The notes: a model not told the origin generated them from the sequence alone. A stretch of 64,000 bases of DNA from Haloarchaeobius sp. HME9146 (GCF_025399835.1 NZ_JAODVR010000001.1:62001-126000), one strand, 5' to 3'. Positions 5,916 through 21,036 are shown, numbered from the stretch's first letter. A program made the numbers and translations.

Positions 5916-7436
5916 ATGCGACAGCTCGGCCCGCTCGGCCTCGCCCTCGTCCTCGTCGTCCTCCTCGCCGGCTGCAATGCGGTCCCCATCGGCGCACAGG
6001 AGTCGGGGACCCTCGGTGTGAACGACTCGCTCGCCGAGAACGCGAGCGTCACCAACCCGACGACCGACCAGCAGGGCTGGGAGGACGGGTTCTGGTACGA
6101 CGAATCACTGAACGTCACGACCGCCGACGGACTCAGCGACGCCGAACTCGACGCCGTCGTCGCCCGCGCGATGGCCCGCGTCGAGCAGGTCCGGGGCGTG
6201 GAGTTCGAGCGCCCAGTCCCGGTGGAACTCGTCAGCCGGAGCGAGTACCGGAACTCGACGGCGGCAGGGGCCAGTGCCGGGAGCGGCGACGGCGCGTCAG
6301 CAGCACAGCAGGCCGCGGCCGCCGAACAGGCCGCCCGGTACGAGGCGCTGTTCCTCGTGGGCGAGTCGGCCGACGCCCAACAGCAGCAGTCCGAGAACCG
6401 CGGCTCGACCGTGCAGGGGTACTACGACACCCAGGAGGACCGCATCGTCATCGTCTCCCAGAGCGATCCGGCGCGCCTCAACGAGGTGACGCTGGCCCAG
6501 GAACTCTACCACGCCTACCAGTTCCGGCAGGTCCTCGTCTCGACCCCAGTGCCGAGAAACATGAACGACGACCAGGTTCGCGGGGTCATCTCACTGGTCG
6601 AGGGTGACGCCAACTTCGTCGACCGGCGATACGAGCAGCGGTGTTCGACGGACTGGGAGTGCCTGGAAGACGATGGAACCGGTGGCGACAGCGGCTCCGC
6701 CGAGGACGGCGACGGCGAGACCGCAGCCAGCACCGACGACGGCCCCTCTATCCACATGGGCCTGTACCTGCTCTCGTACTTCCCCTACGCCGAGGGCGAG
6801 GAACTCGTCCACGACATCTACGCCGAGGACGGCTGGGAGGGCGTGGACGACCTGTACGAGGACCCGCCGCTGTCCAGTGAGCAGGTCATCGAGCAGGACC
6901 TCGATGCCGACTCGGACCTGGTGCAGGAACCCGACCGGAGTAACCAGGCGTGGGAGCGCGTCGACGTCGGGCCGCCGGGGTCGACCCTCGGCGAGGCCGG
7001 CATCGCCACGATGTTCGCGTACACCCTCTACGACGACCGGAACGCGACGCTGATCTCGCGCGAGGACTTGCTCAACACGGACGCGAACGGGACCGTGAAC
7101 AGCTCGAACCCGCTGGACTACGACCTGCCCCCGAGTGACGGCTGGGCAGGCGACACGCTGTACGCCTACCAGAACGGCGACCAGACGGGCTACGTCTGGC
7201 ACACGACGTGGGATTCGCAGAGCGACGCCCGCGAGTTCGCCGACGCCTACCGCGAACTGCTTCGCTATCACGACGCAGAGCAGGTCGACGAGAACACGTA
7301 CCTCATCCTTCAGGGGCCGTTCGCCGACGCCTTCCGGGTGACGGTCGACGGGAAACAGGTGACCATCGTGAACGGCCCGGCCCCCTCGACGCTGGACGGG
7401 ATTCGCGATGGGGCGGCGAACGCGACTGCGGACTGA
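5916..7436 (+). CDS. Hvo_1808-family surface lipoprotein
   Basis: 506 residues. The signal peptide ends in LAGC (Cys20), so the protein should be lipid-anchored outside the membrane. The mature part resembles the haloarchaeal Hvo_1808 surface-protein family: an Ala/Gln/Ser-rich loop (about 115-160), a segment around residue 195 reading TLAQELYHAYQFRQ, an acidic low-complexity insert (about 250-275), and a C-terminal domain with repeated GW/YAYQNGDQTGYVW features. The QELYHAYQ segment looks like a zinc-metalloprotease helix (HExxH) whose first His is Gln, so catalysis is doubtful. No partner gene is evident. The family call rests on remembered similarity. Confidence 0.7.
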   Translation: MRQLGPLGLALVLVVLLAGCNAVPIGAQESGTLGVNDSLAENASVTNPTTDQQGWEDGFWYDESLNVTTADGLSDAELDAVVARAMARVEQVRGVEFERPVPVELVSRSEYRNSTAAGASAGSGDGASAAQQAAAAEQAARYEALFLVGESADAQQQQSENRGSTVQGYYDTQEDRIVIVSQSDPARLNEVTLAQELYHAYQFRQVLVSTPVPRNMNDDQVRGVISLVEGDANFVDRRYEQRCSTDWECLEDDGTGGDSGSAEDGDGETAASTDDGPSIHMGLYLLSYFPYAEGEELVHDIYAEDGWEGVDDLYEDPPLSSEQVIEQDLDADSDLVQEPDRSNQAWERVDVGPPGSTLGEAGIATMFAYTLYDDRNATLISREDLLNTDANGTVNSSNPLDYDLPPSDGWAGDTLYAYQNGDQTGYVWHTTWDSQSDAREFADAYRELLRYHDAEQVDENTYLILQGPFADAFRVTVDGKQVTIVNGPAPSTLDGIRDGAANATAD

Positions 7437-7466: not shown

Positions 7467-9647
7467 TTACCGGACCAGCAACTCGACCGGGTGCCGAATC
7501 CCCTGCGACAGCAGGTCGCCTAACTGCTCGGTACAGGAGGTCCCCGACGCGACGACCGTTCCCTCGCCCGCGAACTGCTCGCGCAAGGGCTCGCCGACGG
7601 TCATGCTCATCTCGTAGTACTCCGACTTGTAGCCGAAGCTCCCGGCCATCCCGCAGCACTCGGTGTTGGAGGTGCGGACACTGGCTCCACAGTCTTCCAG
7701 CACTGCGACGGTGTACGGTTCCAGCCCGAGGGTGCGCTGCTGGCAGTGGCTGTGGTAGGCCACCTCGCTAGGTGGCGATTCCAGGGCACTCGAATCGGCC
7801 CCGTTCTCGAGGAGTCCGTAGAGGTACTCCATCACCTCGTAGCTCGCGTCCGCGAGGCGCTCGTACGCCTTCGGCGCGAGGAACTTCTCGTACTCCCGGT
7901 CGAACATCGCGAGGTCCGACGGCTCGACCACGACCACGTCGCGGTCCGCGTCGATGTGCTCGGCGAGGCTCGCGTACACCTCGTGGGCGTGATCCTCTGC
8001 AGTCGAAACCATGCCCTGCGATAGCGGGGCGCGCCCGGACGAGGCCATCTTCGGGACCTTGACGTGGACGTCCAGGGCTTCGAGCGCCCGGACCGCGGCC
8101 TTCCCGCGGTCGACCAGCACGTGGTTGGTGTAGAGGTCCGGATAGAGGACGGCCTCGCGGTCGGCCTCGTCGGCCGGAACCGTCGGTCCTCGCGAGTCGA
8201 ACCACTTTACCAGGGTCTCGCGCTGGAATTCTGGTAACTCGCGCCGGCGGTCGATGCCGAGGAACCGGTCCATCCCGGCCCGGACTGGGTCGGTACCGGC
8301 CACCCAGTTCGAGACGGGGGCGGTCGCACTCGCCAGTCGGGCTACAGAATCGAAGTTGCCGAACAACCGCTTGCCGAGGTCCAGTCCAGCGGGTTCCTCG
8401 TCCGGCGTCAGCCCGTCGACGAGGTGGTCGAATGCGTCGGCATCTGCGCCCTGATTCACGCGGTCGCGGACGACCGTGTTTATCCAGGGGATGTCGATCT
8501 TGACGGGGCAGGCGTTCACGCACCGGGTACAGCCGGTGCACATGTCGTTGAACTCGGCGGCACTGTCGAGACCGTGGACGCCGGCCTCCCAGCCGGTGCC
8601 GATTCCTCCTGAATAGGTCTCGCCGCCGAACCCGTGGCCGCCGACGGCCTGGAAGTTGCCACACGAGTTCGAGCACGCGCCACACCGGATGCAGTACAGG
8701 GTCTCGCGCAGGTGTTCGTCCTCGCGCATGTCGAAGCGGCCGTTGTCGAGCAGCACGAGGTGGAACTCGCGGTCCTCGCCCAATCCGCGCTCGTCGGTCT
8801 CGAAGTCGAAGGTCGGCGAGTCCGTGGGTGGGGTGAACAGCGAGATGTACTGCGAGATGTCCTGCCCCGTGGCCGCCTTCGAGATGATGTCGATGAAGGG
8901 GCCGAGTTCGCGAATAGAGGGGATGAGTTTCTCGACGCCCGCGACCGCGACGTGCGTGTCGGGCGTCACCGCGCACTTGCGGGCGTTGCCCTCGTTCGTG
9001 ACGAGCGCGATGGTGCCGGATTCGGCCATCACGAAGTTCGCGCCCGTGACGCCCACGTCGGCCTCCATGATGCGCTCGCCGAGGTAGTCCCGGGCGAACT
9101 TCGTCATCTCCTCGGCCGTCTCCAGGGGTTCCTCGGGCTCGAACACCTCGTTGAGCAGGTCGGCGATCTCCTCGCGGGACTTGTGCAGCGCCGGGCCGAC
9201 GAGGTGGCTCGGGGTCTCGTCCGCGAGCTGGATGACGAACTCGCCGAGGTCGGTCTCGTACACGTCGACCCCGGCGTCCGCGAGCGCGTCGTTGAGTTCG
9301 GTCTCCTCGGTCGTCATCGACTTCGACTTCACCAGCGTCTCGGCCGACTCCTGCTCGCAGACTTCCTCGACGTAGCGGTTCGCGTCCGCCGCGTCCTCGG
9401 CGAGGTAGACCGTCCCGCCGTTGGCCTCGACCGACTCCCGGACCGTCTCGATGAGGTGGTCGAGGTTCGCGATGGCGTCCTCCTTGATGGCCCGTGCCGC
9501 CTCGCGACTGTCTTCCCAGTCGTCGAAGCGGTCGATGGCTGCGTAGCGCTTCTCGTTCTTGTCCTGGACGCTCGGGCCGATGTTCGGGCCCTCCGCGTCG
9601 AGCAGGTGACGAATCTCCGCCGCCTTGCGTCTTCGTTCTGTGCTCAT
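7467..9647 (-). CDS. LutB-like LUD/4Fe-4S protein fused to a LutA-like CCG domain
   Basis: 726 residues. Residues about 75-300 form a LUD (lactate utilisation) domain with GANFVMAESGTIALVTNEGN. Two ferredoxin-type clusters follow, CIRCGACSNSC (319-329) and CTGCTRCVNACP (370-381). The C-terminal 250 residues look like paired CCG cysteine-rich domains; the second is intact (Cys635, ECCG at 663-666, Cys705), while the first reads ASSGRA and EPSDL where cysteines are usual. In bacteria LutA, LutB and LutC together oxidise L-lactate; here the A- and B-like parts are one chain. It is the last gene of the importer operon and its ATG overlaps the lutC stop by 4 nt. The reaction is inferred from family; the organic acid is not proven. 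Confidence 0.85.
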   Translation of the reverse strand: MSTERRRKAAEIRHLLDAEGPNIGPSVQDKNEKRYAAIDRFDDWEDSREAARAIKEDAIANLDHLIETVRESVEANGGTVYLAEDAADANRYVEEVCEQESAETLVKSKSMTTEETELNDALADAGVDVYETDLGEFVIQLADETPSHLVGPALHKSREEIADLLNEVFEPEEPLETAEEMTKFARDYLGERIMEADVGVTGANFVMAESGTIALVTNEGNARKCAVTPDTHVAVAGVEKLIPSIRELGPFIDIISKAATGQDISQYISLFTPPTDSPTFDFETDERGLGEDREFHLVLLDNGRFDMREDEHLRETLYCIRCGACSNSCGNFQAVGGHGFGGETYSGGIGTGWEAGVHGLDSAAEFNDMCTGCTRCVNACPVKIDIPWINTVVRDRVNQGADADAFDHLVDGLTPDEEPAGLDLGKRLFGNFDSVARLASATAPVSNWVAGTDPVRAGMDRFLGIDRRRELPEFQRETLVKWFDSRGPTVPADEADREAVLYPDLYTNHVLVDRGKAAVRALEALDVHVKVPKMASSGRAPLSQGMVSTAEDHAHEVYASLAEHIDADRDVVVVEPSDLAMFDREYEKFLAPKAYERLADASYEVMEYLYGLLENGADSSALESPPSEVAYHSHCQQRTLGLEPYTVAVLEDCGASVRTSNTECCGMAGSFGYKSEYYEMSMTVGEPLREQFAGEGTVVASGTSCTEQLGDLLSQGIRHPVELLVR

Positions 9648-10150
9648 CTGTCTTCGATGACGATGACGTGTACTTCGTTCGGGCCGTGGACCCCTTCGAC
9701 GAGGCCACCCATGTCGGCCGTCGCGGACGGACCGGTCGCGAACACGTAGGAATCGCGCCCGGACTCAAACTCGTCGGCGAGCCAGTCGACCGCGTCCCGG
9801 GTCCCGTCGACGAGCGCGCTGGCCGCGACGACCGCGACGTGGCGGTTCGGGTAGAGGCTCACCGGCTCGTCGCCCTCGGGCGTCGACCGGATGAGGATGC
9901 TGCCGAGCGCGGCCACACCGAGGCGGGCGGGCGTGACACCCGTCTCCGCGTCGGCGAGGTCAGACGGACTGGGGTCGGTTCCAACCGGCTCCGGGAGGCC
10001 GACGCCCTCGAACGGCAGCGGTGTCCCGACAGCGGGCGCGTCGACCGCCGCCGCGATTGCGGATTCAGCGTCCGCCGCAGGGACGACATCGACTGTCGCG
10101 CCGGTCTCGGCGACCGACTCCGTGAACGCGTCTGTGATACCCGTACTCAT
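9644..10150 (-). CDS. LutC-like LUD-domain protein
   Basis: 168 residues, nearly all one LUD domain. It ends with FATGPSATADMGGLVEGVHGPNEVHVIVIEDR, the typical LUD C-terminus (GPSATADIxxxxVxGxHGPxxxxVxL). LutC acts with LutA/LutB in L-lactate oxidation in Bacillus. Here it lies between the LivF-like ATPase and the LutB-like protein, overlapping both by 4 nt, so it is translated as part of the same operon. LUD domains occur in several small-acid pathways, so a substrate other than lactate remains possible. Confidence 0.8.
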   Translation of the reverse strand: MSTGITDAFTESVAETGATVDVVPAADAESAIAAAVDAPAVGTPLPFEGVGLPEPVGTDPSPSDLADAETGVTPARLGVAALGSILIRSTPEGDEPVSLYPNRHVAVVAASALVDGTRDAVDWLADEFESGRDSYVFATGPSATADMGGLVEGVHGPNEVHVIVIEDR

Positions 10151-10920
10151 ACCCCGAGGTACGTCTGCCGAAGGGCGTCGTCTTTTCGGAGTCGGTCCGT
10201 GCTGACCTCGGCGACGATCTGGCCCTCGTCGAGGATGTAGTGGCGCGACCCGATGGCGAGCGCGGCCGCGACGTTCTGCTCGACGAAGAAGACGGTCACG
10301 CCCTTCTCGTCGTTGATGTCCGCGATGATGTCCTCGATACGCCGGACGATGTAGGGCGCGAGCCCCTCGAACGGTTCGTCGAGCAGCATCAGGTCCGGGT
10401 TCGCGGCCAGCGCCCGGGCGATGGCGAGCATCTGCTGTTCGCCCCCGCTCATGTTCCGGGCGTGCTTCTCCCGCATGTCGTCGAGTTCCGGGAAGAACTC
10501 GAGGACCGCGTCCACCGACAGCGAGTCGTCGACGGTGTTCACCGCGAGCTGGATGTTCTCGACGACCGAGAGCCGCGGGAAGCAGCGTCGCTTCTCGGGG
10601 ACGATGGCGATGCCCCGGTTCGCGCGCTGGTAGGACTCCAGCCCGAGGATGGACTCGCCGCGGTAGCGGACGTCGCCGTTGGTCACCTCGGGCACGTCGC
10701 CGCCCATGATAGCCCGGATGGTCGTCGTCTTGCCTGCGCCGTTACGGCCGAGCAACGAGACGAGTTCGCCCTCGTGGATGGAGAGGTCGACGCCGAACAG
10801 CACCTGTCCCGTCTCGTAGCCGGCTTCGAGGCCGGCCACGTCGAGGACGACCGGCCCGTCCGCCGCGTCTCCATCTGCGTCCGATGCGTCGTCGCGTGGT
10901 GTGGCTGCGTCAGAACTCAT
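10147..10920 (-). CDS. livF: ABC transporter ATP-binding protein, LivF type
   Basis: 257 residues. Walker A GRNGAGKTTT (near 59), signature MSGGEQQML, Walker B LMLLDEPFEGLAP and the switch region VFFVEQNV are all present. The length and the GLAP motif after Walker B are typical of LivF, one of two ATPases of branched-chain amino-acid/urea/amide (HAAT) importers. An acidic N-terminal extension of about 25 residues is haloarchaeal. It overlaps livG and lutC by 4 nt each. The partner permeases and binding protein are encoded upstream in the same operon. The gene symbol is by family; branched-chain amino acids need not be the substrate. Confidence 0.85.
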   Translation of the reverse strand: MSSDAATPRDDASDADGDAADGPVVLDVAGLEAGYETGQVLFGVDLSIHEGELVSLLGRNGAGKTTTIRAIMGGDVPEVTNGDVRYRGESILGLESYQRANRGIAIVPEKRRCFPRLSVVENIQLAVNTVDDSLSVDAVLEFFPELDDMREKHARNMSGGEQQMLAIARALAANPDLMLLDEPFEGLAPYIVRRIEDIIADINDEKGVTVFFVEQNVAAALAIGSRHYILDEGQIVAEVSTDRLRKDDALRQTYLGV

Positions 10921-11735
10921 AGTTCCTCCCTGATGCCGCCGAGATAGGCGTCCTGGACTCGTTCGTCCGCCTGGACCTCCTCGGGCGTGCCCGTCGCGAT
11001 TATCGACCCGCGGTTGAGCACGCTGATGCGGTCGCTGATGGCGAGCACGACGTCCATGTCGTGCTCGATGAGGACGAGCGTGAGCCCCAGCTCGGACTGG
11101 AGCGACTGGATGAGTTCGGCGGTCGCGTTCGTCGCGTCCGGGCTCATCCCCGAGGTCGGCTCGTCGAGCAACAGCACGTCCGGGTCCGTGGCGAGCGCCA
11201 TGGCGATGCCGAGGCGGCGCTGGTCGCCGTGGCTCAGGTTCTTCGCGAGCGTGTCAGGGTCGGCGTCGAGGCCGACGCGCCGGAGGTGCTCGCGGGCCGC
11301 GTCCTCGCCGACCTCGCGGTGGTCGCGGAACAGGTCCCAGCTGAAGTCGCCGCGCTCGGTGGTCTGGGCGACCACGCGAACGTTCTCCAGGACGGTCTGG
11401 TCGGCGAAGAGTTCGTTCGACTGGAACGACCGTGCCAGCCCCTGGTGGGGGCGGTCGTACTCCGGGTCGTCCGTGATGTCGGTGCCGTCGAGGTAGATGC
11501 GCCCCGCGGTCGGTTCCAGGGTGCCCATGACGGAGTTGAACAGGGTGGTCTTCCCGGCCCCGTTCGGGCCGATGACGGCCCGGAGCTCGCCCGGTTCGAT
11601 GCCGAGCGAGACGTCGTCGACCGCGGTCACCTCGCCGAAGGTCTTCCGGAGCCCGTCGGTGGCGAGGGCTGCCTCGCTTCTGGGGACCGCCGGGTCGACG
11701 TCGACGTCCATCTTGCCCGGTGCTTCACCGCTCAT
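10917..11735 (-). CDS. livG: ABC transporter ATP-binding protein, LivG type
   Basis: 272 residues. Walker A GPNGAGKTTLF (near 55), a signature variant LSHGDQRRLG, Walker B VLLLDEPTSGMSP and the switch LIEHDMDVV identify LivG, the second ATPase of HAAT-type importers. The C-terminus LNRGSIIATGTPEEVQADERVQDAYLGG ends in the usual LivG tail. The gene overlaps livM and livF by 4 nt. It should form a heterodimer with LivF beneath the LivH/LivM permease pair. Confidence 0.87.
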   Translation of the reverse strand: MSGEAPGKMDVDVDPAVPRSEAALATDGLRKTFGEVTAVDDVSLGIEPGELRAVIGPNGAGKTTLFNSVMGTLEPTAGRIYLDGTDITDDPEYDRPHQGLARSFQSNELFADQTVLENVRVVAQTTERGDFSWDLFRDHREVGEDAAREHLRRVGLDADPDTLAKNLSHGDQRRLGIAMALATDPDVLLLDEPTSGMSPDATNATAELIQSLQSELGLTLVLIEHDMDVVLAISDRISVLNRGSIIATGTPEEVQADERVQDAYLGGIREEL

Positions 11736-12856
11736 TCGGCATCACCCCGGACCCGCGTGACGAGTCGAGAGATGCGACCGGTGAGGAAGCCCCAGACGCC
11801 TTCGAGCGGGGCCGCCACGACCACGATGACGAAGATGCCACCGAGGAAGAACGGCCAGTCCGCGGCGAGGTCGAGGCTCACGATACCGAGGTCGAGCACC
11901 CCGAAGTCGGTGAGGAACTCCTCGGCGAACTGCCAGAGGAACACCCCGGCGATGGGGCCGAAGAAGTACCGGACCCCGCCGAGCACCGCCATCAGGACGG
12001 TGTCACCGCTCGTGGTGACCGAGAGCGTCTCCAGTGACGCCCCGAAGTCGTTGATGGAGAGCAGTGCCCCGGCGAGGGCCGCGAACATCGCGCTCAGGGT
12101 GAACGACTGCACCTTGTAGCGCGTGGTGTTCACGCCCATCGCGCGGGCGAGGTTCTCGTTCTCGCGGATGGCCACCAGCGACCGCCCGAACGGCGAGCGC
12201 GTGATCTGCCAGAGCGCGAGCATCGCCGCGAGGAACACCAGCGCGACGAACCAGTACCAGTCGAGCGAGCCGAAGCCCGCGATGTCGAACGGGAGGGGCA
12301 GACTGAGTCGCCCCCGGGTCGTCTCGACGAAGCCGGGCAGGACGCCCTGGGAGATACCGTTCGAGCCGCCGGTGAGTTCGCCGGGGTTCTTGTTCGCCGT
12401 GAAGTGGATGGCCTGGGCGACCGCCAGCGTCAGGAAGGCGAAGTATATCTCGCCCTTTTGCACCGTGAGCCGGCCGATTCCATATCCAAGGCCAGCCGCG
12501 AGCACCATCCCGAGTACTGTCGAAAGGGGGAACCCGAGCACCGGGAAGCCCGCGTGCCCGGAGACGCCCAACGCGGCGGCGTACATCCCGATGCCGAGGA
12601 ACATGGCGTGCCCGAACGAGAGCAAGCCCGTGTACCCGAACAGCAGGTTGAACGCCGCGACGTACAGCATCCAGATGAGCATCGTGGCCGCGATGGCCTC
12701 GAACCCGAGCAGGAACGGGAGCGACACGAGTGGTTTGAGCAGCACCACGAGCGCGATGAGGCCGAGTGGGATGCGGTAGCGCTGGGCCAGCGCCTTCGCG
12801 GTGGCGAGGGAATCGGAGTCGCGTTCGGCCTCGCCGTGGACCGTCTCGCCGCTCAT
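11732..12856 (-). CDS. livM: branched-chain type ABC transporter permease LivM
   Basis: 374 residues. After an acidic 30-residue cytoplasmic N-terminus come about 8-10 hydrophobic segments with landmark LivM motifs: YTGLLSFGHAMFLGIGMY (near 88-105), the cytoplasmic coupling loop SPFGRSLVAIRENENLARAMG, and GPIAGVFLWQ near the C-terminus. I chose the ATG at 12856 because it gives the acidic N-terminus and a 4 nt overlap with the livH stop; a much longer open frame continues upstream inside livH and is not the gene. It forms the membrane channel with LivH. Confidence 0.87.
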   Translation of the reverse strand: MSGETVHGEAERDSDSLATAKALAQRYRIPLGLIALVVLLKPLVSLPFLLGFEAIAATMLIWMLYVAAFNLLFGYTGLLSFGHAMFLGIGMYAAALGVSGHAGFPVLGFPLSTVLGMVLAAGLGYGIGRLTVQKGEIYFAFLTLAVAQAIHFTANKNPGELTGGSNGISQGVLPGFVETTRGRLSLPLPFDIAGFGSLDWYWFVALVFLAAMLALWQITRSPFGRSLVAIRENENLARAMGVNTTRYKVQSFTLSAMFAALAGALLSINDFGASLETLSVTTSGDTVLMAVLGGVRYFFGPIAGVFLWQFAEEFLTDFGVLDLGIVSLDLAADWPFFLGGIFVIVVVAAPLEGVWGFLTGRISRLVTRVRGDAE

Positions 12857-13872
12857 TCGAGGAACCCCTCCTCGCCGAACAGGCCGCGTGGTCTGACCAG
12901 CAGGATGAGCACCATCACCAGATACGGCACGATGCCGCCGATGTCCGCCCCGAGGACGCCGATACCGGTGACCTCCGACAGCGCGTCGCCAATCGCCGGG
13001 ACGAGGAAACGCGCCTCGCCGATGATGATGCCGCTGACGACGCTGCCGAACAGGCTGCCGACGCCGCCGACCACGACCACGACGAACGCGAGGATGACGA
13101 ACGTCTCGCCCATCGTCGTGTTCATCGTGTACTCGGGCGCATAGAGCGCGCCGGCGAGGCCCGCGATGGCCGCCCCCACGAAGAACATCGTGGTGAAGCG
13201 GAACGGGAGGTTCACGCCGACGAACTCGGTCATCTCGCCGTCCTGCACGCCGGCCCGGACGGTCAGGCCGTAGTCGGTCTTCGAGATGAGTGCGTAGACG
13301 GCGACGACCGTGACGACCGCGACCGCGACGATGAACAGGCGGAACGCGCCCACCTGCGTCGGGCCGAGGTCGACGCTCGCCGCGAGCAGGCCGGGCTTGT
13401 CGTAGCCCAGCGGCTGGGTGCCCCAGTGGCTCTCGATGACCTGCTCCATCATCATCGTCAGGCCGAACGTCGCGAGCAGGCTGACGATGGGGTCCTGGTC
13501 GTACAGGTACCTGAGGACCGTCATCTCGAGCAACACACCGACGACCCCGACGAAGACGGGGACGAGCACGAGGGCCGCCCAGAACGGCAGCCCCAGCGTG
13601 ACGACGACCGAGTACGAGGCGTACGCGCCGAGCATGAAGAACGCCCCGTGGGCGAAGTTCACGATGCCCATCAGCCCGAGGATGAGCGACAGCCCGAGCG
13701 TGATGAGCACCAGGACCATCCCGTAGACGAGGCCACCGATGGCCTGGTCGATGAACAGCCCCGGGTCGACCGCCGCCGTGATGCCCAGCAGGACGAGCGT
13801 CACGACGCCGACCACCCACCAGACGGGCGAGACGTTCACGAGTCGCTCACGCGTGAGTTGTGTCGTGCTCAT
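12853..13872 (-). CDS. livH: branched-chain type ABC transporter permease LivH
   Basis: 339 residues with about 8 transmembrane segments. LivH-type features include GMVLVLITLGLSLILGLMG and MGIVNFAHGAFFMLGAY in the first third, MMEQVIESHWG in the middle, a coupling loop around GVQDGEMTEFVGVN, and GGVGSLFGSVVSG. It lies 6 nt downstream of the substrate-binding protein gene and overlaps livM by 4 nt. LivH pairs with LivM to form the translocation path for small amphipathic solutes. Confidence 0.87.
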   Translation of the reverse strand: MSTTQLTRERLVNVSPVWWVVGVVTLVLLGITAAVDPGLFIDQAIGGLVYGMVLVLITLGLSLILGLMGIVNFAHGAFFMLGAYASYSVVVTLGLPFWAALVLVPVFVGVVGVLLEMTVLRYLYDQDPIVSLLATFGLTMMMEQVIESHWGTQPLGYDKPGLLAASVDLGPTQVGAFRLFIVAVAVVTVVAVYALISKTDYGLTVRAGVQDGEMTEFVGVNLPFRFTTMFFVGAAIAGLAGALYAPEYTMNTTMGETFVILAFVVVVVGGVGSLFGSVVSGIIIGEARFLVPAIGDALSEVTGIGVLGADIGGIVPYLVMVLILLVRPRGLFGEEGFLE

Positions 13873-13878
13873 CGACCG

Positions 13879-15147
13879 TTAGAACGAGCACCCGGTGTCG
13901 GCCACCGAACGCGCCACGTCGTCCCCCGCGAACGTCTTGGTCGCGGTGAACCAGCGCTTGTAGGGGTCGTCCTGCATGTCGCTCTCCGGGAGCGCCTCCA
14001 TGCTGAACGTCGGCTGGATGAGCTGGTGGTCGCCCTCGCGCCAGTACATCTTCTCGCCGCCCTTGATGTCCTTCGCGGGCGAGGTGACCTCGTGGCCTTC
14101 GAGGGCCGAGCGCATCTCCTCGGCACCCGAGGAGTCCGCCCGGACCGCCGCCCGGACCGCCTGGTCCATCGCGACGTAGCCGAGGTAGTGCCGGACGTAG
14201 GGGCTGGTCTCGGAGTTCTCCGCGACGCGGGTCGCGAAGTCGTTGCTGGCGCTGTTGTCCACGCCGGGACCCCAGACCTGACCGGCCGCGTCGAGCACGC
14301 TGGCCGCCTTCTTGTCGTTGTACACCGCGTCCTCCAGCTGGTGCATCGCGAGGACGTGGTTCTCGTGCATGCCCTTCGCGAGGAGCTGGTTCGTCGCCTT
14401 GCGCAGGTCCAGCCCCGCGACGAGCATGCCGATACCGTCCGCATCGGCAGACTTCGCCTCGTTGAGGTACGGCGCGTAGTCGTCGTTGGGGAACGGCGTC
14501 GCCGACTTCCCGACGACGGTCTTGCCCTGCGATTCGAGGATGCGCGTGACCGCCGCCTGGGCGGTCTGGCCCCACGAGTAATCGGAGTACAGCAGGTACC
14601 AGTTGTCCGCCTGGTTCGCCATCTCCTCGCCGATGGTCGCCGCGAGCATCGAGTTCGAGGTCGTCGGCCGGAACACGTACTTGCCACAGCCGCTCCCCGT
14701 CAGCGCGTCACTGTGCGCGCCGGTCGGGAAGTAGACGACCTCGTTCTGCGAGGCCCACTCGCCCATCTTCAGCGCCACACTGGAGGAGACCGCGCCCATG
14801 GTGAAGTCTGCGCCGTCCTCCGTGACGAGCTTCTTCATCCGGCTGACGCCGGTGCTCGGTTCGAGCTTCGTGTCGCCGGTGACGATCTCGATGTCGACGC
14901 CGAGTTCGTCCTTGAGGTCCTCGACCGCCATCTTCGCGCCGTCGAGCGCCGACTCGCCGAACACGGCGAACGGGCCGGACAGCGAGGTCGTGTAGCCGAC
15001 TGTCAACGTGTCGGTGCCACCACCGCCACCACCCAGGCCGCCGAGACAGCCCGAGAGTCCGGTGAGGCCGGCGACCCCGGCCGCGCCGAGGGTCTTCAGT
15101 GCAGTACGTCTACTCGTTCCCGTGCCGCGATTGTTGGTGCCACCCAT
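13879..15147 (-). CDS. ABC transporter substrate-binding lipoprotein (Peripla_BP_6 type)
   Basis: 422 residues. The Tat signal has RR at residues 13-14, a hydrophobic stretch and a lipobox LSGC (Cys34), so the protein should be exported folded and anchored outside the membrane. A Gly-rich linker leads to the binding domain: DTLTVGYTTSLSGPFAVFGE, then the hinge and lobes with typical type-I periplasmic binding protein spacing. I chose the ATG at 15147 because the Tat signal follows and a TATA-like GCTTATA lies 25-31 nt upstream. As first gene of the seven-gene operon it defines the transported ligand. Relatives bind branched-chain amino acids, urea or amides; the linked LUD genes suggest a hydroxy acid here. 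Confidence 0.85.
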   Translation of the reverse strand: MGGTNNRGTGTSRRTALKTLGAAGVAGLTGLSGCLGGLGGGGGGTDTLTVGYTTSLSGPFAVFGESALDGAKMAVEDLKDELGVDIEIVTGDTKLEPSTGVSRMKKLVTEDGADFTMGAVSSSVALKMGEWASQNEVVYFPTGAHSDALTGSGCGKYVFRPTTSNSMLAATIGEEMANQADNWYLLYSDYSWGQTAQAAVTRILESQGKTVVGKSATPFPNDDYAPYLNEAKSADADGIGMLVAGLDLRKATNQLLAKGMHENHVLAMHQLEDAVYNDKKAASVLDAAGQVWGPGVDNSASNDFATRVAENSETSPYVRHYLGYVAMDQAVRAAVRADSSGAEEMRSALEGHEVTSPAKDIKGGEKMYWREGDHQLIQPTFSMEALPESDMQDDPYKRWFTATKTFAGDDVARSVADTGCSF

Positions 15148-15171
15148 GTCAATCCATTTCAAACCCGTTGG

Positions 15172-15178
15172 TATAAGC
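15172..15178 (-). promoter_or_regulatory. TATA-like element for the importer/LUD operon
   Basis: On the minus strand GCTTATA lies 25-31 nt before the ATG at 15147. It is the only clear promoter for the seven overlapping or near-contiguous genes down to 7467. Confidence 0.55.
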
Positions 15179-15261
15179 ACCTATGGTGGTCTCCCGTATC
15201 GCCGGCGATGAATTTACGGTCGAAGGCTGGAATAATCAAGAACTCACAGAACCCGTGTTAG

Positions 15262-16440: not shown

Positions 16441-17319
16441 ATGCGAGGAACCGGACTACCGCTCGTGACGCCCTTCAGCGACGACGAGAGCATCGACGAG
16501 GGCGCGCTCCGAGAACTGGTCGCGTGGGTCACCGACGCGGGGGTCGACTTCATCGTCCCCTGCGGGTCGAACAGCGAGGCGGCGCTGCTCACACCGGAGG
16601 AACGGACCCGGGTGGTCGAGGTCGTCGCCGACGAGACCGACCTGCCCGTGCTCGCGGGGACCGGCCACCCCGGGCTGCACCAGACCCGCGAGCAGACCGC
16701 CGCCGCGGCCGAGGCGGGTGCGGACGCCGCCCTGGTCGTCACCCCGTTCTACCACCAGCACGACCAGGCGGCCATGGCCGACTACTACCGTGACGTGGCC
16801 GACGCGAGTGCCATCCCCATCTACCTCTACAGCGTCCCGAAGTACACCGACACGGTGCTCCAGCCCGAGACGGTCGGCGAACTGGCGAGCCACCCCAACA
16901 TCGCGGGCATCAAGGACTCCAGCGGGAGCCTGGAGGCGCTCCAGCGCACCATCTCACGGACCGACGACGCGGACTTCGACGTCCTCGTCGGGAGCGGGAG
17001 CATCTTCGCTGCCGGCCTCGAGTACGGTGCTGCCGGCGGCGTCCTGGCGATGGCGAACGTCGTCCCCGACCTGGCCAGCGAGGTGTACGCGCGACAGCAG
17101 GCTGGCGACATCGCGGGTGCACGCGAGCTGAACCAGTCGCTCGTCGAACTGAATCGCGCCGTCACGGCGGGACACGGCGTCCCCGGGCTGAAGGCCGCGA
17201 TGCGCCACCGTGGGCAACCGGCCGGCAGGACGCGCCGTCCCTTCACGCCGGTCGACGCCGACGCCGAGGAGACACTCGCCTCACTCGTCGACGGCGCGCT
17301 CGACGACGCCCGGACCTGA
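16441..17319 (+). CDS. DapA-superfamily (DHDPS/NAL) lyase or aldolase
   Basis: 292 residues forming one TIM barrel. The Schiff-base lysine motif GIKDSSG stands near residue 157, LYSVPKYT takes the place of the YNVPxRT tyrosine region near 130, and the early loop reads PCGSNSEAALLTPEER instead of the usual GTTGE. The C-terminus PGLKAAM...RPFTPV is typical of the family. The changed loop and the lack of lysine-biosynthesis neighbours argue against true dihydrodipicolinate synthase; a 2-keto-3-deoxy-sugar-acid or other pyruvate-dependent aldolase is likelier. I chose ATG 16441 over GTG 16432 because of promoter spacing. Its 3' end overlaps the convergent regulator gene by 39 nt. Confidence 0.8.
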   Translation: MRGTGLPLVTPFSDDESIDEGALRELVAWVTDAGVDFIVPCGSNSEAALLTPEERTRVVEVVADETDLPVLAGTGHPGLHQTREQTAAAAEAGADAALVVTPFYHQHDQAAMADYYRDVADASAIPIYLYSVPKYTDTVLQPETVGELASHPNIAGIKDSSGSLEALQRTISRTDDADFDVLVGSGSIFAAGLEYGAAGGVLAMANVVPDLASEVYARQQAGDIAGARELNQSLVELNRAVTAGHGVPGLKAAMRHRGQPAGRTRRPFTPVDADAEETLASLVDGALDDART

Positions 17320-18009
17320 ATCGGCCGCGGGTGCAGCCACGGCCCGGGTCGCCGTCGCCTTCGCAGTTACGACGACCTGACGGCCGGGTTCCAGCCCCAG
17401 TCGCGCCACGCTGTCCATCGTCACGAGTGCCGACAGCGGCGACTCCGCGCCCACGTCCACGGTGACGGTGGCGATGGCCTGGCCGGCATCGACCTCCGAC
17501 ACGGTCCCCTCGAACCGGTTCCGGGCGCTGGTGCCGCCGGCAGCGGGCGCGTCGGCTGGCTCGTGGAGCGTCACCGCGTCCGCGCGGAGCCAGACCTGCA
17601 CGTCGGTCGCCTCGGCGGGAACCAGTGCCCGCAGCCGGCCGACGGCCGTCTCGACCGTCCCGAGTTCCCCGTCGCGGTCGACGACCCGACCGTCGAGGAC
17701 CGTCTCGTCGGCCTCCGCGACCCCGGCGAACTCGGCGCTGAGGCGCTGGAGGCGCGCGAGCAGGTCCCTGGCCTGCGGGGTGAGCTGGCTCCCGCCACCA
17801 CCCGACCCACCGCGGGTCCGCTCGACCAGCGACCCAAACGCGCCCTCCAGCGACTGGAGCCGGGCGAGTGCCCGGGCGTACGAGCGACCGAGGTCGTCCG
17901 CGGCCCGGTTCAGCGAGCCCGCGTCGTCGATGGCCCGCAGTAGCGTCGCGTCGTCGGCTCCGAAGGTCACGTCGCCCGACCGCAGGCCTGCCTCGAAGTC
18001 ACCCTCCAT
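17281..18009 (-). CDS. ModE-like winged-helix regulator with TOBE domain
   Basis: 242 residues. Residues about 15-105 match the ModE/LysR-type winged helix (LLRAIDDAGSLNRAADDLG ... LVERTRGGSGGGGSQLT ... ARDLLARL). Residues about 165-225 form a single TOBE (Mop) domain (NRFEGTVSEVDAGQAIATVTVDV ... ALVTMDSVARLGLEPGRQVVVTAKA) that binds oxyanions. It is divergent from wtpA across 65 nt, so it most likely controls the tungstate transporter in response to tungstate or molybdate; this is inference from position and domains. I chose the ATG at 18009 over one 9 codons upstream because the domain starts soon after it. It converges on the aldolase gene. Confidence 0.82.
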   Translation of the reverse strand: MEGDFEAGLRSGDVTFGADDATLLRAIDDAGSLNRAADDLGRSYARALARLQSLEGAFGSLVERTRGGSGGGGSQLTPQARDLLARLQRLSAEFAGVAEADETVLDGRVVDRDGELGTVETAVGRLRALVPAEATDVQVWLRADAVTLHEPADAPAAGGTSARNRFEGTVSEVDAGQAIATVTVDVGAESPLSALVTMDSVARLGLEPGRQVVVTAKATATRAVAAPAADSGPGVVERAVDE

Positions 18010-18074
18010 GCCCACCCGTCCGCGACCCGTCGGCAAAACCGTTATGTCACCCCCGTCGAAACACCGTTGTATCT
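18010..18074. promoter_or_regulatory. shared intergenic region of the ModE-like regulator and wtpA
   Basis: This 65 nt gap must hold both divergent promoters and any oxyanion-responsive operator. AAAACCGTTATGTC lies near -35 of wtpA and contains its best TATA-like candidate. No strong palindrome is visible. Confidence 0.4.
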
Positions 18075-19085
18075 ATGTCGGAACAACGCTACTCGCGCCG
18101 GACGTTCCTCGCCGGCGCGGCCGCGACAGGGACCGCAGCACTCGCCGGGTGTATCTCGTCGTTCACGGGCGGGAGCAGCGGTGACACCGCGACCATCTTC
18201 CACGCTGGCAGTCTCGCCGCACCCTTCGGCGACGCCGAGAAACCGTTCGAGCAACAGCACGACGCCGAGGTGGTCCGCGAGGCGAAGGGCTCCGTGGGGT
18301 CGACGAAGAAGATAACCGAGCAGGGCAAGTCGGCGGAGGTACTCGGCGTCTCAGACTTCCGGCTCATCCGCGACATGATGCTACCCGACCACGGCGACTG
18401 GTACAGCATCTTCGCGACCAACTCGATGGCCATCGCCTACACCGACGACTCGACGGGGGCCGACGAGTTCTCGACCGAGAACTGGTGGGAGGTACTGGCC
18501 CGCGACGACGTGACCTTCGCCCACAGCGACCCCGCGGTCGACCCGAACGGCTACCGCTCCCGGATGGCGATGAAACTCGGGGCCATCGAGTTCGAGGGCG
18601 AGCGCCTCTACGACGAATCGACCCGCGACACCCTCATCGAGCAGTCGAAGATCCCCTCCGGCACGGAGACCGAGCTCATCGGCCAACTCGAATCCGGCGA
18701 GCTCGACTACGCCTGGCAGTACAAGTCCGCGGGCGCGAGCCACGACGTGAACGTCATCGACCTCCAGCCCGCCGTCAACCTCGCCGTCGCGGACCAGAAA
18801 CACGCCAAGCATTACGCGAAGGCCGAGGTCGAAGCAGGCGGGAACACCTACACGGGCGCGCCCATCGCCTACGGCATCACCGTTCCCGGTGTCGCGGAGA
18901 CCCCAGACCTCGGCGCGCAGTGGGTCGAGTTCATGGCCAGCGACGAGGGCAAGGCCATCCTCGAGGACAACGGGTTCTCGCCGGTCTCGCCACTGGTCGT
19001 CCCCGAGAGCGGGAAGAGCAACGTGCCGGAGAGCGTCATGGGCATGGCCGAGGCGAAGTCCAGCCTCGGTCCCCTGGAACTGTAG
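18075..19085 (+). CDS. wtpA: tungstate/molybdate ABC transporter substrate-binding protein WtpA
   Basis: 336 residues. A Tat signal (RR at 8-9) ends in a lipobox LAGC (Cys26). The mature protein follows the WtpA pattern closely: IFHAGSLAAPFGDAEKPFE, EAKGSVGSTKKITEQGKSAEVLGVSD, IFATNSMAIAYTD, SDPAVDPNGYRSRMAMKL and IPSGTETELIGQLESGELDYAW. WtpA binds tungstate very tightly on the outer membrane face and delivers it to WtpB. The ATG at 18075 starts the Tat signal. wtpB follows after 32 nt and wtpC overlaps wtpB, forming one operon. Tungstate rather than molybdate is the family expectation; the sequence does not exclude molybdate. Confidence 0.9.
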   Translation: MSEQRYSRRTFLAGAAATGTAALAGCISSFTGGSSGDTATIFHAGSLAAPFGDAEKPFEQQHDAEVVREAKGSVGSTKKITEQGKSAEVLGVSDFRLIRDMMLPDHGDWYSIFATNSMAIAYTDDSTGADEFSTENWWEVLARDDVTFAHSDPAVDPNGYRSRMAMKLGAIEFEGERLYDESTRDTLIEQSKIPSGTETELIGQLESGELDYAWQYKSAGASHDVNVIDLQPAVNLAVADQKHAKHYAKAEVEAGGNTYTGAPIAYGITVPGVAETPDLGAQWVEFMASDEGKAILEDNGFSPVSPLVVPESGKSNVPESVMGMAEAKSSLGPLEL

Positions 19086-19117
19086 CGCGGGGTTCTTCAG
19101 TCCACACTCCCTGTTCG

Positions 19118-20104
19118 ATGGCGATGGAAGACCAGACGGCAACCGGGACAGCCCCGATGAGCGACACGCTCGGCCGCGGCTCGCTCGCCGTCGCCGTTGC
19201 GACGGTCCAGTTCGCCGTCTTCGCTGGCCTCGTCGTCCTCGACATGCCGACGCTCTACGTCCCGTTCGCGCTCGCCAGCGCCGCCACGCTGGGGTACGTC
19301 AGCGACCGGGGCTGGTTCGGCCTCGCCACCGCGACCCTCGGCACGGTCCTCTTGCTGGCGCTCGCCCTCCCACTCGGGCTGTTCGTCGCCCGACAGAAGC
19401 CCGCTCTCGTCGCCGACGCCCTCACGGACCCGGCCGTCCACCAGATGCTGTACCTGACGATATACGCGCCGCTGGTCGCCGCGGTCGTCGCCCTGCTGTT
19501 CGGCGTCCCGCTGGCGTACCTGCTCGCCAGAGGCTTCCCCGGTGACGCGGTCATCGCCGCCCTCGTCGACCTCCCCCTCGTGGTTCCGCACTCGGTCGCG
19601 GGCATCCTCATCCTGTTCGGTTTCGGTCGCCGAGGCGTCCTCCCGGGCGTCTCCGTCCTCGGCACGATGGCCGGCATGGTGCTCGCCCTCTCGTTCGTCG
19701 CCGCCCCCTTCGCGGTCAATGCAGCCCGCGACGCCTTCGAGGCGGTCGACCCCAGACTCGAATACGCTGCCCGGAGCCACGGCGCGACCCAGACCGACAC
19801 GTTCCTCCGGGTGAGTCTCCCGCTCGCCAAGCGCGGCATCGCGACCGGCGGCGTCCTCGCGTGGGCCCGCGGTGTCAGCGAGTTCGGCGCGGTCGCCGTC
19901 GTCGCCTACACGGTCGAGTTCTTCTACCCGCCCGCGCTCGACACGGTCCTCGGCACGCACGCCCCGGTGTACATCTTCCAGCAGTACAACCAGGCCGGTC
20001 TCGACCAGTCCGGGTCGGTCGCGTTCGTCCTGCTCGTGCTCTCGCTCCTGATATTCCTGCTCGTCAGATGGCTCGGCTTCGGCCAGCTGGGTGGTGCCTC
20101 GTGA
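19118..20104 (+). CDS. wtpB: tungstate ABC transporter permease WtpB
   Basis: 328 residues. Several hydrophobic segments are followed by a canonical type-I importer permease: PLVAAVVALLFGVPLAYLLAR, DLPLVVPHSVAGILILFGFG, and the EAA coupling loop DPRLEYAARSHGATQTDTFLRVSLPLAKRG (near 210-240). An N-terminal extension of about 85 residues contributes two or three extra helices. The start could be ATG 19118 or ATG 19157 (MSDTLGRGS); I used the first. It lies 32 nt after wtpA and overlaps wtpC by 4 nt (GTGA). Confidence 0.87.
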   Translation: MAMEDQTATGTAPMSDTLGRGSLAVAVATVQFAVFAGLVVLDMPTLYVPFALASAATLGYVSDRGWFGLATATLGTVLLLALALPLGLFVARQKPALVADALTDPAVHQMLYLTIYAPLVAAVVALLFGVPLAYLLARGFPGDAVIAALVDLPLVVPHSVAGILILFGFGRRGVLPGVSVLGTMAGMVLALSFVAAPFAVNAARDAFEAVDPRLEYAARSHGATQTDTFLRVSLPLAKRGIATGGVLAWARGVSEFGAVAVVAYTVEFFYPPALDTVLGTHAPVYIFQQYNQAGLDQSGSVAFVLLVLSLLIFLLVRWLGFGQLGGAS

Positions 20105-21036
20105 GCCTCGACTTCACGGTCCGGGCCCGGTTCACCGCCCCCGGTGCCGAGCCGTTCACCGTCGACGCCGATCTGGCGGTCGAGACCGGCGAGACGCTGG
20201 TCGTCCTCGGCCCCAGCGGGAGCGGGAAGACCCTGCTCCTCGAATGCGTCGGCGGCCACCACAGCTACCACGGAACCGTCGCGAGCCACGGCCACGACCT
20301 CAGTGACGCCCCACCGGAGCATCGCGACTTCGGCTTCGTGTTCCAGGACTACGCGCTGTTCCCGCACATGACCGCCCGCGAGAACGTCGACTTCGGGTCG
20401 AAGTACCACGACGAGGTGGGCGACCCCGACGACCTGCTCGCGGACCTCGACGTGGCCGACCTCGCCGACCGCTATCCGGACACGCTCTCGGGCGGGGAGC
20501 AACAGCGCGTCGCCCTCGCGCGCGCCCTCGCCATCCAGCCCGACGTGTTGCTGCTAGACGAGCCGCTGTCGGCACTCGACGCACCGACCCGCCGGAGCCT
20601 CCGGGGTGACCTCGCGGACGTACTGGACGAGGTGACGGCGCTGTACGTCACCCACGACCGGACGACCGCCCGGGCGCTGGCCGACCGCGTGGCGGTCATG
20701 CGGGATGGGCAGGTCGTCCAGGTCGGGAGCCCCGAAGAGGTGTTCGAGCGACCAGCCACCGCGTTCGTGGCCCGGTTCGTCGGCGCGAACGTGCTCCCCG
20801 GAGGCCTCGTCGGTTCGAAGGCCGAGTCGGTCGCGATCCGACCCGAACACGTCCGAATCGGCGACGGGGAGTACACCGGGACCGTCGAACGGGCGGCCCG
20901 TGAGGAGGCTGCGACCCGGGTGACGCTCGATGTGGGCGGGACAAGGGTCGAGGCGCTGGTGCAGGACCCGCCGACGGTCGGTGAGTCTGTCGCGGTGGGA
21001 CTGCCCGCAGCACACCGCAGCCGGCTCGACGGGTAG
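20101..21036 (+). CDS. wtpC: tungstate ABC transporter ATP-binding protein WtpC
   Basis: 311 residues, starting at a GTG that overlaps the wtpB stop by 4 nt. Walker A GPSGSGKTLL (near 38), FVFQDYALFPHM (Q-loop), signature LSGGEQQRVALARAL and Walker B LLLDEPLSALD are intact. After residue 235 comes a TOBE-type domain (SVAIRPEHVRIGDGEYTGTVERAAREEAATRVTLDVGG) that may sense oxyanion and inhibit the pump, as in ModC/WtpC relatives. No better start exists within the ABC domain frame. Confidence 0.87.
   Translation: MSLDFTVRARFTAPGAEPFTVDADLAVETGETLVVLGPSGSGKTLLLECVGGHHSYHGTVASHGHDLSDAPPEHRDFGFVFQDYALFPHMTARENVDFGSKYHDEVGDPDDLLADLDVADLADRYPDTLSGGEQQRVALARALAIQPDVLLLDEPLSALDAPTRRSLRGDLADVLDEVTALYVTHDRTTARALADRVAVMRDGQVVQVGSPEEVFERPATAFVARFVGANVLPGGLVGSKAESVAIRPEHVRIGDGEYTGTVERAAREEAATRVTLDVGGTRVEALVQDPPTVGESVAVGLPAAHRSRLDG

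Follow-up and report, generated by a model that had tools for sequence, protein, structure and literature searches.

The window, a stretch of 64,000 nucleotides from Haloarchaeobius sp. HME9146, carries seven genes in succession on its minus strand between positions 7467 and 15147, all seven reading frames being open with one terminal stop each. The first encodes a solute-binding protein (SBP; 13879..15147, 422 aa) with a twin-arginine-like signal and a lipobox, and is followed by genes for two permeases, LivH/UrtB-like (12853..13872, 339 aa, PF02653) and LivM/UrtC-like (11732..12856, 374 aa), two ATPases, LivG/UrtD-like (10917..11735, 272 aa, PF00005 and PF12399) and LivF/UrtE-like (10147..10920, 257 aa, PF00005), the LUD domain protein LutC/LudC (9644..10150, 168 aa, PF02589 at 56 bits) and a LudB/LdhH-like fusion of LutB and LutA (LutB-A; 7467..9647, 726 aa). 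The Pfam assignments are, in this order, Peripla_BP_6, BPD_transp_2 twice, ABC_tran twice, LUD_dom, and LUD_dom with Fer4 domains. The SBP and LivH-like genes are separated by a 6-nt gap, and five 4-nt overlaps (H/M, M/G, G/F, F/LutC and LutC/LutBA) join the last six genes; the succession on one strand and the overlaps were both described in an earlier note on this DNA and are borne out by the open frames, the Pfam domains and the measured junctions. GC3 lies between 0.84 and 0.95 across all seven genes, the high value typical of real haloarchaeal genes. A TATA-like GCTTATA about 30 nt 5' of the SBP start codon (within 15148..15200, minus strand) has a counterpart in the aligned upstream regions of relatives and is a probable promoter element. 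Convergent with the operon, at 5916-7436, lies a gene for a product that looks like a secreted lipoprotein and is weakly similar to DUF6782 metallopeptidases, a similar gene being found there across the genus, and at 17281-21036 an HTH_1/TOBE (ModE-like) regulator diverges from an apparent molybdate/tungstate-type ABC importer.

The complete operon is present in identical order in all six Haloarchaeobius genomes sampled; by our own gene calls the transporter and LUD genes overlap by 4 nt in the window and two congeneric genomes and are 14 nt apart in three others. The earlier note had proposed looking for the same gene order in other haloarchaea, and outside the genus SBP-HMGF-LutC-LutBA (HMGF being the two permeases and two ATPases) does recur in Haloferacaceae archaeon XH8 (L072) and MAG QS_1_68_17 (L073), and with one inserted gene, x, in Halorubellus salinus (L044), as GlcD-SBP-HMGF-x-LutC-LutBA. 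A congener of the latter has a GlcD-type FAD oxidase with the importer (L043) and LutBA about 28 kb off, the LutBA distance in genome G013 being about 28 kb. The gene pairing is not a local accident. Our literature search (LutB with LivH, HAAT solute-binding proteins with lactate, and lactate ABC transporters) found no report of it in the papers covered; a bacterial lactate ABC transporter reportedly exists in Phaeobacter.

The five transport proteins make up a complete HAAT (hydrophobic amino acid/amide) importer, and they share with LivJHMGF and UrtABCDE the five-part build, the fold and the order SBP-permease-permease-ATPase-ATPase. They differ from both in that all NCBIfam scores against Liv models, and all against Urt models (best 225 of 304 bits), fall under the curated cut-offs, and in sharing an operon with LUD enzymes. 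Permease 1 scores 181 bits against UrtB and 71 bits against LivH, and the LivF-like ATPase scores higher against UrtE than against LivF, each of these under cut-off, and the likeness of the transporter to the urea (Urt) branch is no less than its likeness to Liv; the label 'Liv-type ABC importer' of the earlier note is therefore right as to a HAAT importer but loose and too narrow as to Liv. The AlphaFold2 model of the SBP (mean pLDDT 84) has a type-1 periplasmic binding fold and matches 3i45, 4maa and 3i09 in the PDB with TM 0.74-0.79. The HAAT-family structures that it resembles include urea, hydroxybenzoate and leucine binders, and among its structural matches are carboxylate binders, for example proteins in complex with 4-hydroxybenzoate or with a 3-methyl-2-oxo acid. 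In a profile alignment to leucine-binding protein, SBP Ser122 aligns with Ser79 and His145 with Thr102, two residues which we take to contact the amino acid; a histidine in place of this threonine suggests a ligand other than an alpha-amino acid. This alignment spans the first lobe only, and no SBP equivalent of Glu226 in leucine-binding protein can thus be assigned.

LutB-A consists of a LUD domain, two intact CxxCxxCxxxC 4Fe-4S motifs (C319-C329 and C370-C380) and a LutA-like C-terminal CCG half with cysteines C635, C664, C665 and C705. One CCG site is intact; the first is degenerate, its cysteines lost (SSGR), in LutB-A and in all 33 haloarchaeal homologues, across which 12 cysteines are invariant. 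Pfam detects LUD domains both in the LutB part and in LutC. The best curated models for LutB-A are LdhH (447 of 800 bits) and LutB/LldF (TIGR00273, 354 of 445 bits), both under cut-off, and we therefore file it, as a divergent member, as LutB/LudB-like; no relative turned up when LutB-A was searched against the PDB. Like bacterial LutABC/LldEFG, the pair combines a LUD-domain LutB and a LutC with Fe-S and CCG domains, the difference being that LutA is here fused to LutB. Of the same kind is LudBC of Haloferax volcanii (HVO_1692/HVO_1693), also a LutB-A fusion of about 730 aa with a small LutC, but there the uptake neighbour is a single LctP (HVO_1696), whereas here it is a five-protein HAAT ABC importer.

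Bacterial lactate utilisation operons are known with LctP/LldP-type permeases, that of H. pylori being an example, and archaeal lactate uptake, too, is usually assigned to LctP-type permeases. The earlier note had held that LUD systems are usually paired with LldP/LctP; such pairing is common but not universal, since of 19 further LutBA loci sampled from the family 6 had LctP nearby, whereas among the others were loci with an Nramp-like permease, with a tripartite-type transporter or with no evident partner. Among 125 genomes of the family, 109 have LutBA and 8 have an SBP ortholog, and it is in these 8 that the 8 LutBA proteins of highest similarity occur. In the LutBA tree the LctP-linked and HAAT-linked proteins lie on opposite sides of one branch (SH-aLRT 93), the HAAT side also including proteins with other transporters or none detected. 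No LctP match at E<=1e-20 was found in four of the 8 operon-bearing genomes (G002, G003, G004 and G013), and in these the importer is the best candidate for lactate entry, a status that leaves room for other permease families. Haloarchaeobius sp. HME9146 itself also has a normal LctP-LutC-LutBA cluster, the LUD paralogue being 62% identical. A further LutBA copy in G004 (L034, 777-10271) lies in a stretch of less typical codon use, where an MFS-type permease gene and a HAAT operon unrelated to this one are close by; we considered this locus as a further case of HAAT-LUD pairing and rejected it, as its SBP is only 29% identical and the MFS-type gene lies between.

Where orthologous importers are not adjacent to LUD genes, they adjoin GlcD (L043), Ldh_2 (L075, L076, L078, L091 and L092) or pyruvate dehydrogenase (PDH) E1 (L094). 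In the Halovenus-type orthologues the importer and the Ldh_2 malate/lactate dehydrogenase stand tail-to-tail and are not co-transcribed, and in Salinigranum, the only such locus, the PDH E1 genes follow the importer. A LUD, GlcD, Ldh_2 or PDH gene lies within 10 kb at 11 of 14 named ortholog loci (a set from which the record of the window itself and closely similar ones may be missing, and of which L074 ends at LivF), as against 1 of 53 distant HAAT loci, this one being counted for a 52-residue GlcD fragment at the locus edge; the Fisher p of about 3e-9 overstates the case, since the loci share descent. The SBP orthologues form one clade (SH-aLRT 95), and gene-neighbour comparison shows the linkage of this importer clade to hydroxy-acid enzymes to be conserved: it has been joined by hydroxy-acid-oxidising enzymes of at least three unrelated kinds. 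Importers of the sister clade instead have genes of beta-oxidation or for aldehyde dehydrogenase as neighbours, which indicates that specificity changes within the subfamily.

Related importers outside the clade also have neighbours that would act on hydroxy acids. The closest importer paralogue of the same genome, at G000:C1 3390172-3402215 (L022, 4173-16215), is Dld-linked and has an SBP that is 48% identical. A fused FAD/Fe-S protein resembling D-2-hydroxyacid dehydrogenases is encoded 3.8 kb away, a linkage also seen in L049 and L089, and the locus includes a small regulator and an Nramp-like permease as well; the module is also present in G001 and MAG SW_10_66_29, and its gene content suggests another hydroxy-acid importer. 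A third, more distant importer of the genome adjoins, by sequence inspection, a phenylacetate-CoA-ligase-like gene. A separate group (L045, 843-14673; L047, L048 and L093) stands beside genes for MeaB, a B12 subunit, a mutase and an acyl-CoA ligase; judged by eye, there is a gene for a TPP-dependent enzyme as well. The mutase carries the RQI motif and, 27 residues further along, an Asp, a combination which we take to be the hallmark of 2-hydroxyisobutyryl-CoA mutase. A similar gene set has been reported for 2-hydroxyisobutyrate (PMC7176365), and the group's neighbours may form a 2-hydroxyisobutyryl-CoA pathway in haloarchaea; the likeness to HcmAB-HCL mutase/ligase clusters is confined to this related importer group, such genes not being part of operon 7467-15147. 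Together, the L045 group and the Dld-linked paralogue suggest a subfamily of 2-hydroxy-acid importers. A G[AS]H[SG] loop is shared by all importers belonging to the three groups linked to hydroxy acids and is absent from the sister group linked to beta-oxidation and aldehyde dehydrogenase. As an exclusive marker for hydroxy acids we rejected this loop, because a distant group that includes bacterial proteins has a histidine there too. In that distant SBP group (L100, L110, L111, L138, L142, L147 and others), from haloarchaea, Desulfobacterota and Omnitrophota, the loop reads THSN. We rate at about even chances the wider proposal of a haloarchaeal HAAT subfamily for short 2-hydroxy acids, marked by G[AS]H[SG] and replacing LctP, which would take lactate here and lactate-like acids (GlcD, Ldh_2, Dld) or 2-hydroxyisobutyrate elsewhere.

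The reading that we favour, and consider probable, is that the operon couples ATP-driven HAAT uptake of lactate, or of a 2-hydroxy acid close to it, to oxidation by the LUD pair. The SBP lipoprotein would capture lactate (most likely L-lactate) or a close short 2-hydroxy acid outside the cell, and HMGF would import it at the expense of ATP. The co-translated LutC and LutB-A would then oxidise the acid to the 2-oxo acid, pyruvate in the case of lactate, and electrons would leave via the 4Fe-4S clusters of LutB-A to the respiratory chain. This would provide a high-affinity route beside or in place of an LctP permease. For the enzyme step we rely on Haloferax volcanii genetics, in which deletion of the haloarchaeal ludBC genes impairs growth on rhamnose, a source of lactate (PMC8305020), whereas we infer the transport step. 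It is quite likely that the ligand is some 2-hydroxy acid, and the odds are slightly in favour of lactate itself. The proposal of a dedicated hydroxy-acid uptake-oxidation route in the earlier note is strengthened by the conservation of the operon and by the swapped hydroxy-acid enzymes beside orthologous importers, with the ligand a matter of inference. Points against the favoured reading are the range of substrates, broad or debated, of the GlcD, Ldh_2 and LUD families (among them glycolate, malate and sulfolactate), the tail-to-tail Ldh_2, the distant LutBA in G013, the change of specificity indicated by the sister clade, and an LctP with its own LUD pair already in the genome.

Of the alternatives, the one that best withstands the data, although we think it rather unlikely, is that the acid imported, and then oxidised by the LUD pair, is a different hydroxy acid, be it glycolate, malate, sulfolactate, glycerate, 2-hydroxyisobutyrate or a 2-hydroxy acid with a branched chain. 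Known GlcD and Ldh_2 members use such acids, and the related L045 group adjoins the probable 2-hydroxyisobutyryl-CoA pathway; however, the deletion ties haloarchaeal LudBC to lactate from rhamnose (PMC8305020), and LUD paralogues in the same genomes are paired with LctP. That this is an ordinary transporter of branched-chain amino acids, amides or urea, with the LUD genes a chance or regulatory neighbour, would fit the family to which each of the five transport proteins belongs and their best NCBIfam matches to urea and Liv models, but appears improbable in view of the scores all lying under cut-off, His145 at the threonine position, the tight conserved coupling and the repeated pairing with different hydroxy-acid enzymes. 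Least probable of all is an operon for a 2-oxo acid, for instance pyruvate, in which LUD would interconvert the oxo and hydroxy forms by redox chemistry, as might be read from the Salinigranum PDH E1 genes and from one HAAT SBP crystallised with a 3-methyl-2-oxo acid, but PDH E1 is found at a single locus and hydroxy acids are the substrates of LUD, GlcD and Ldh_2 alike.

The coupled import and oxidation of lactate or a close acid that we propose would bring known parts into a new combination, and is not a new kind of system. The tight operon, and relatives in which the importer is paired with other lactate-type enzymes, mean that this is probably an unrecognised energy-driven uptake route. 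If lactate is carried, an ATP-driven route would be added to lactate entry in archaea, and a substrate would be given to a set of importers labelled branched-chain amino acid transporters in databases. It would also explain how haloarchaea that have LUD enzymes, and in which LctP is not detectable, may feed on lactate.
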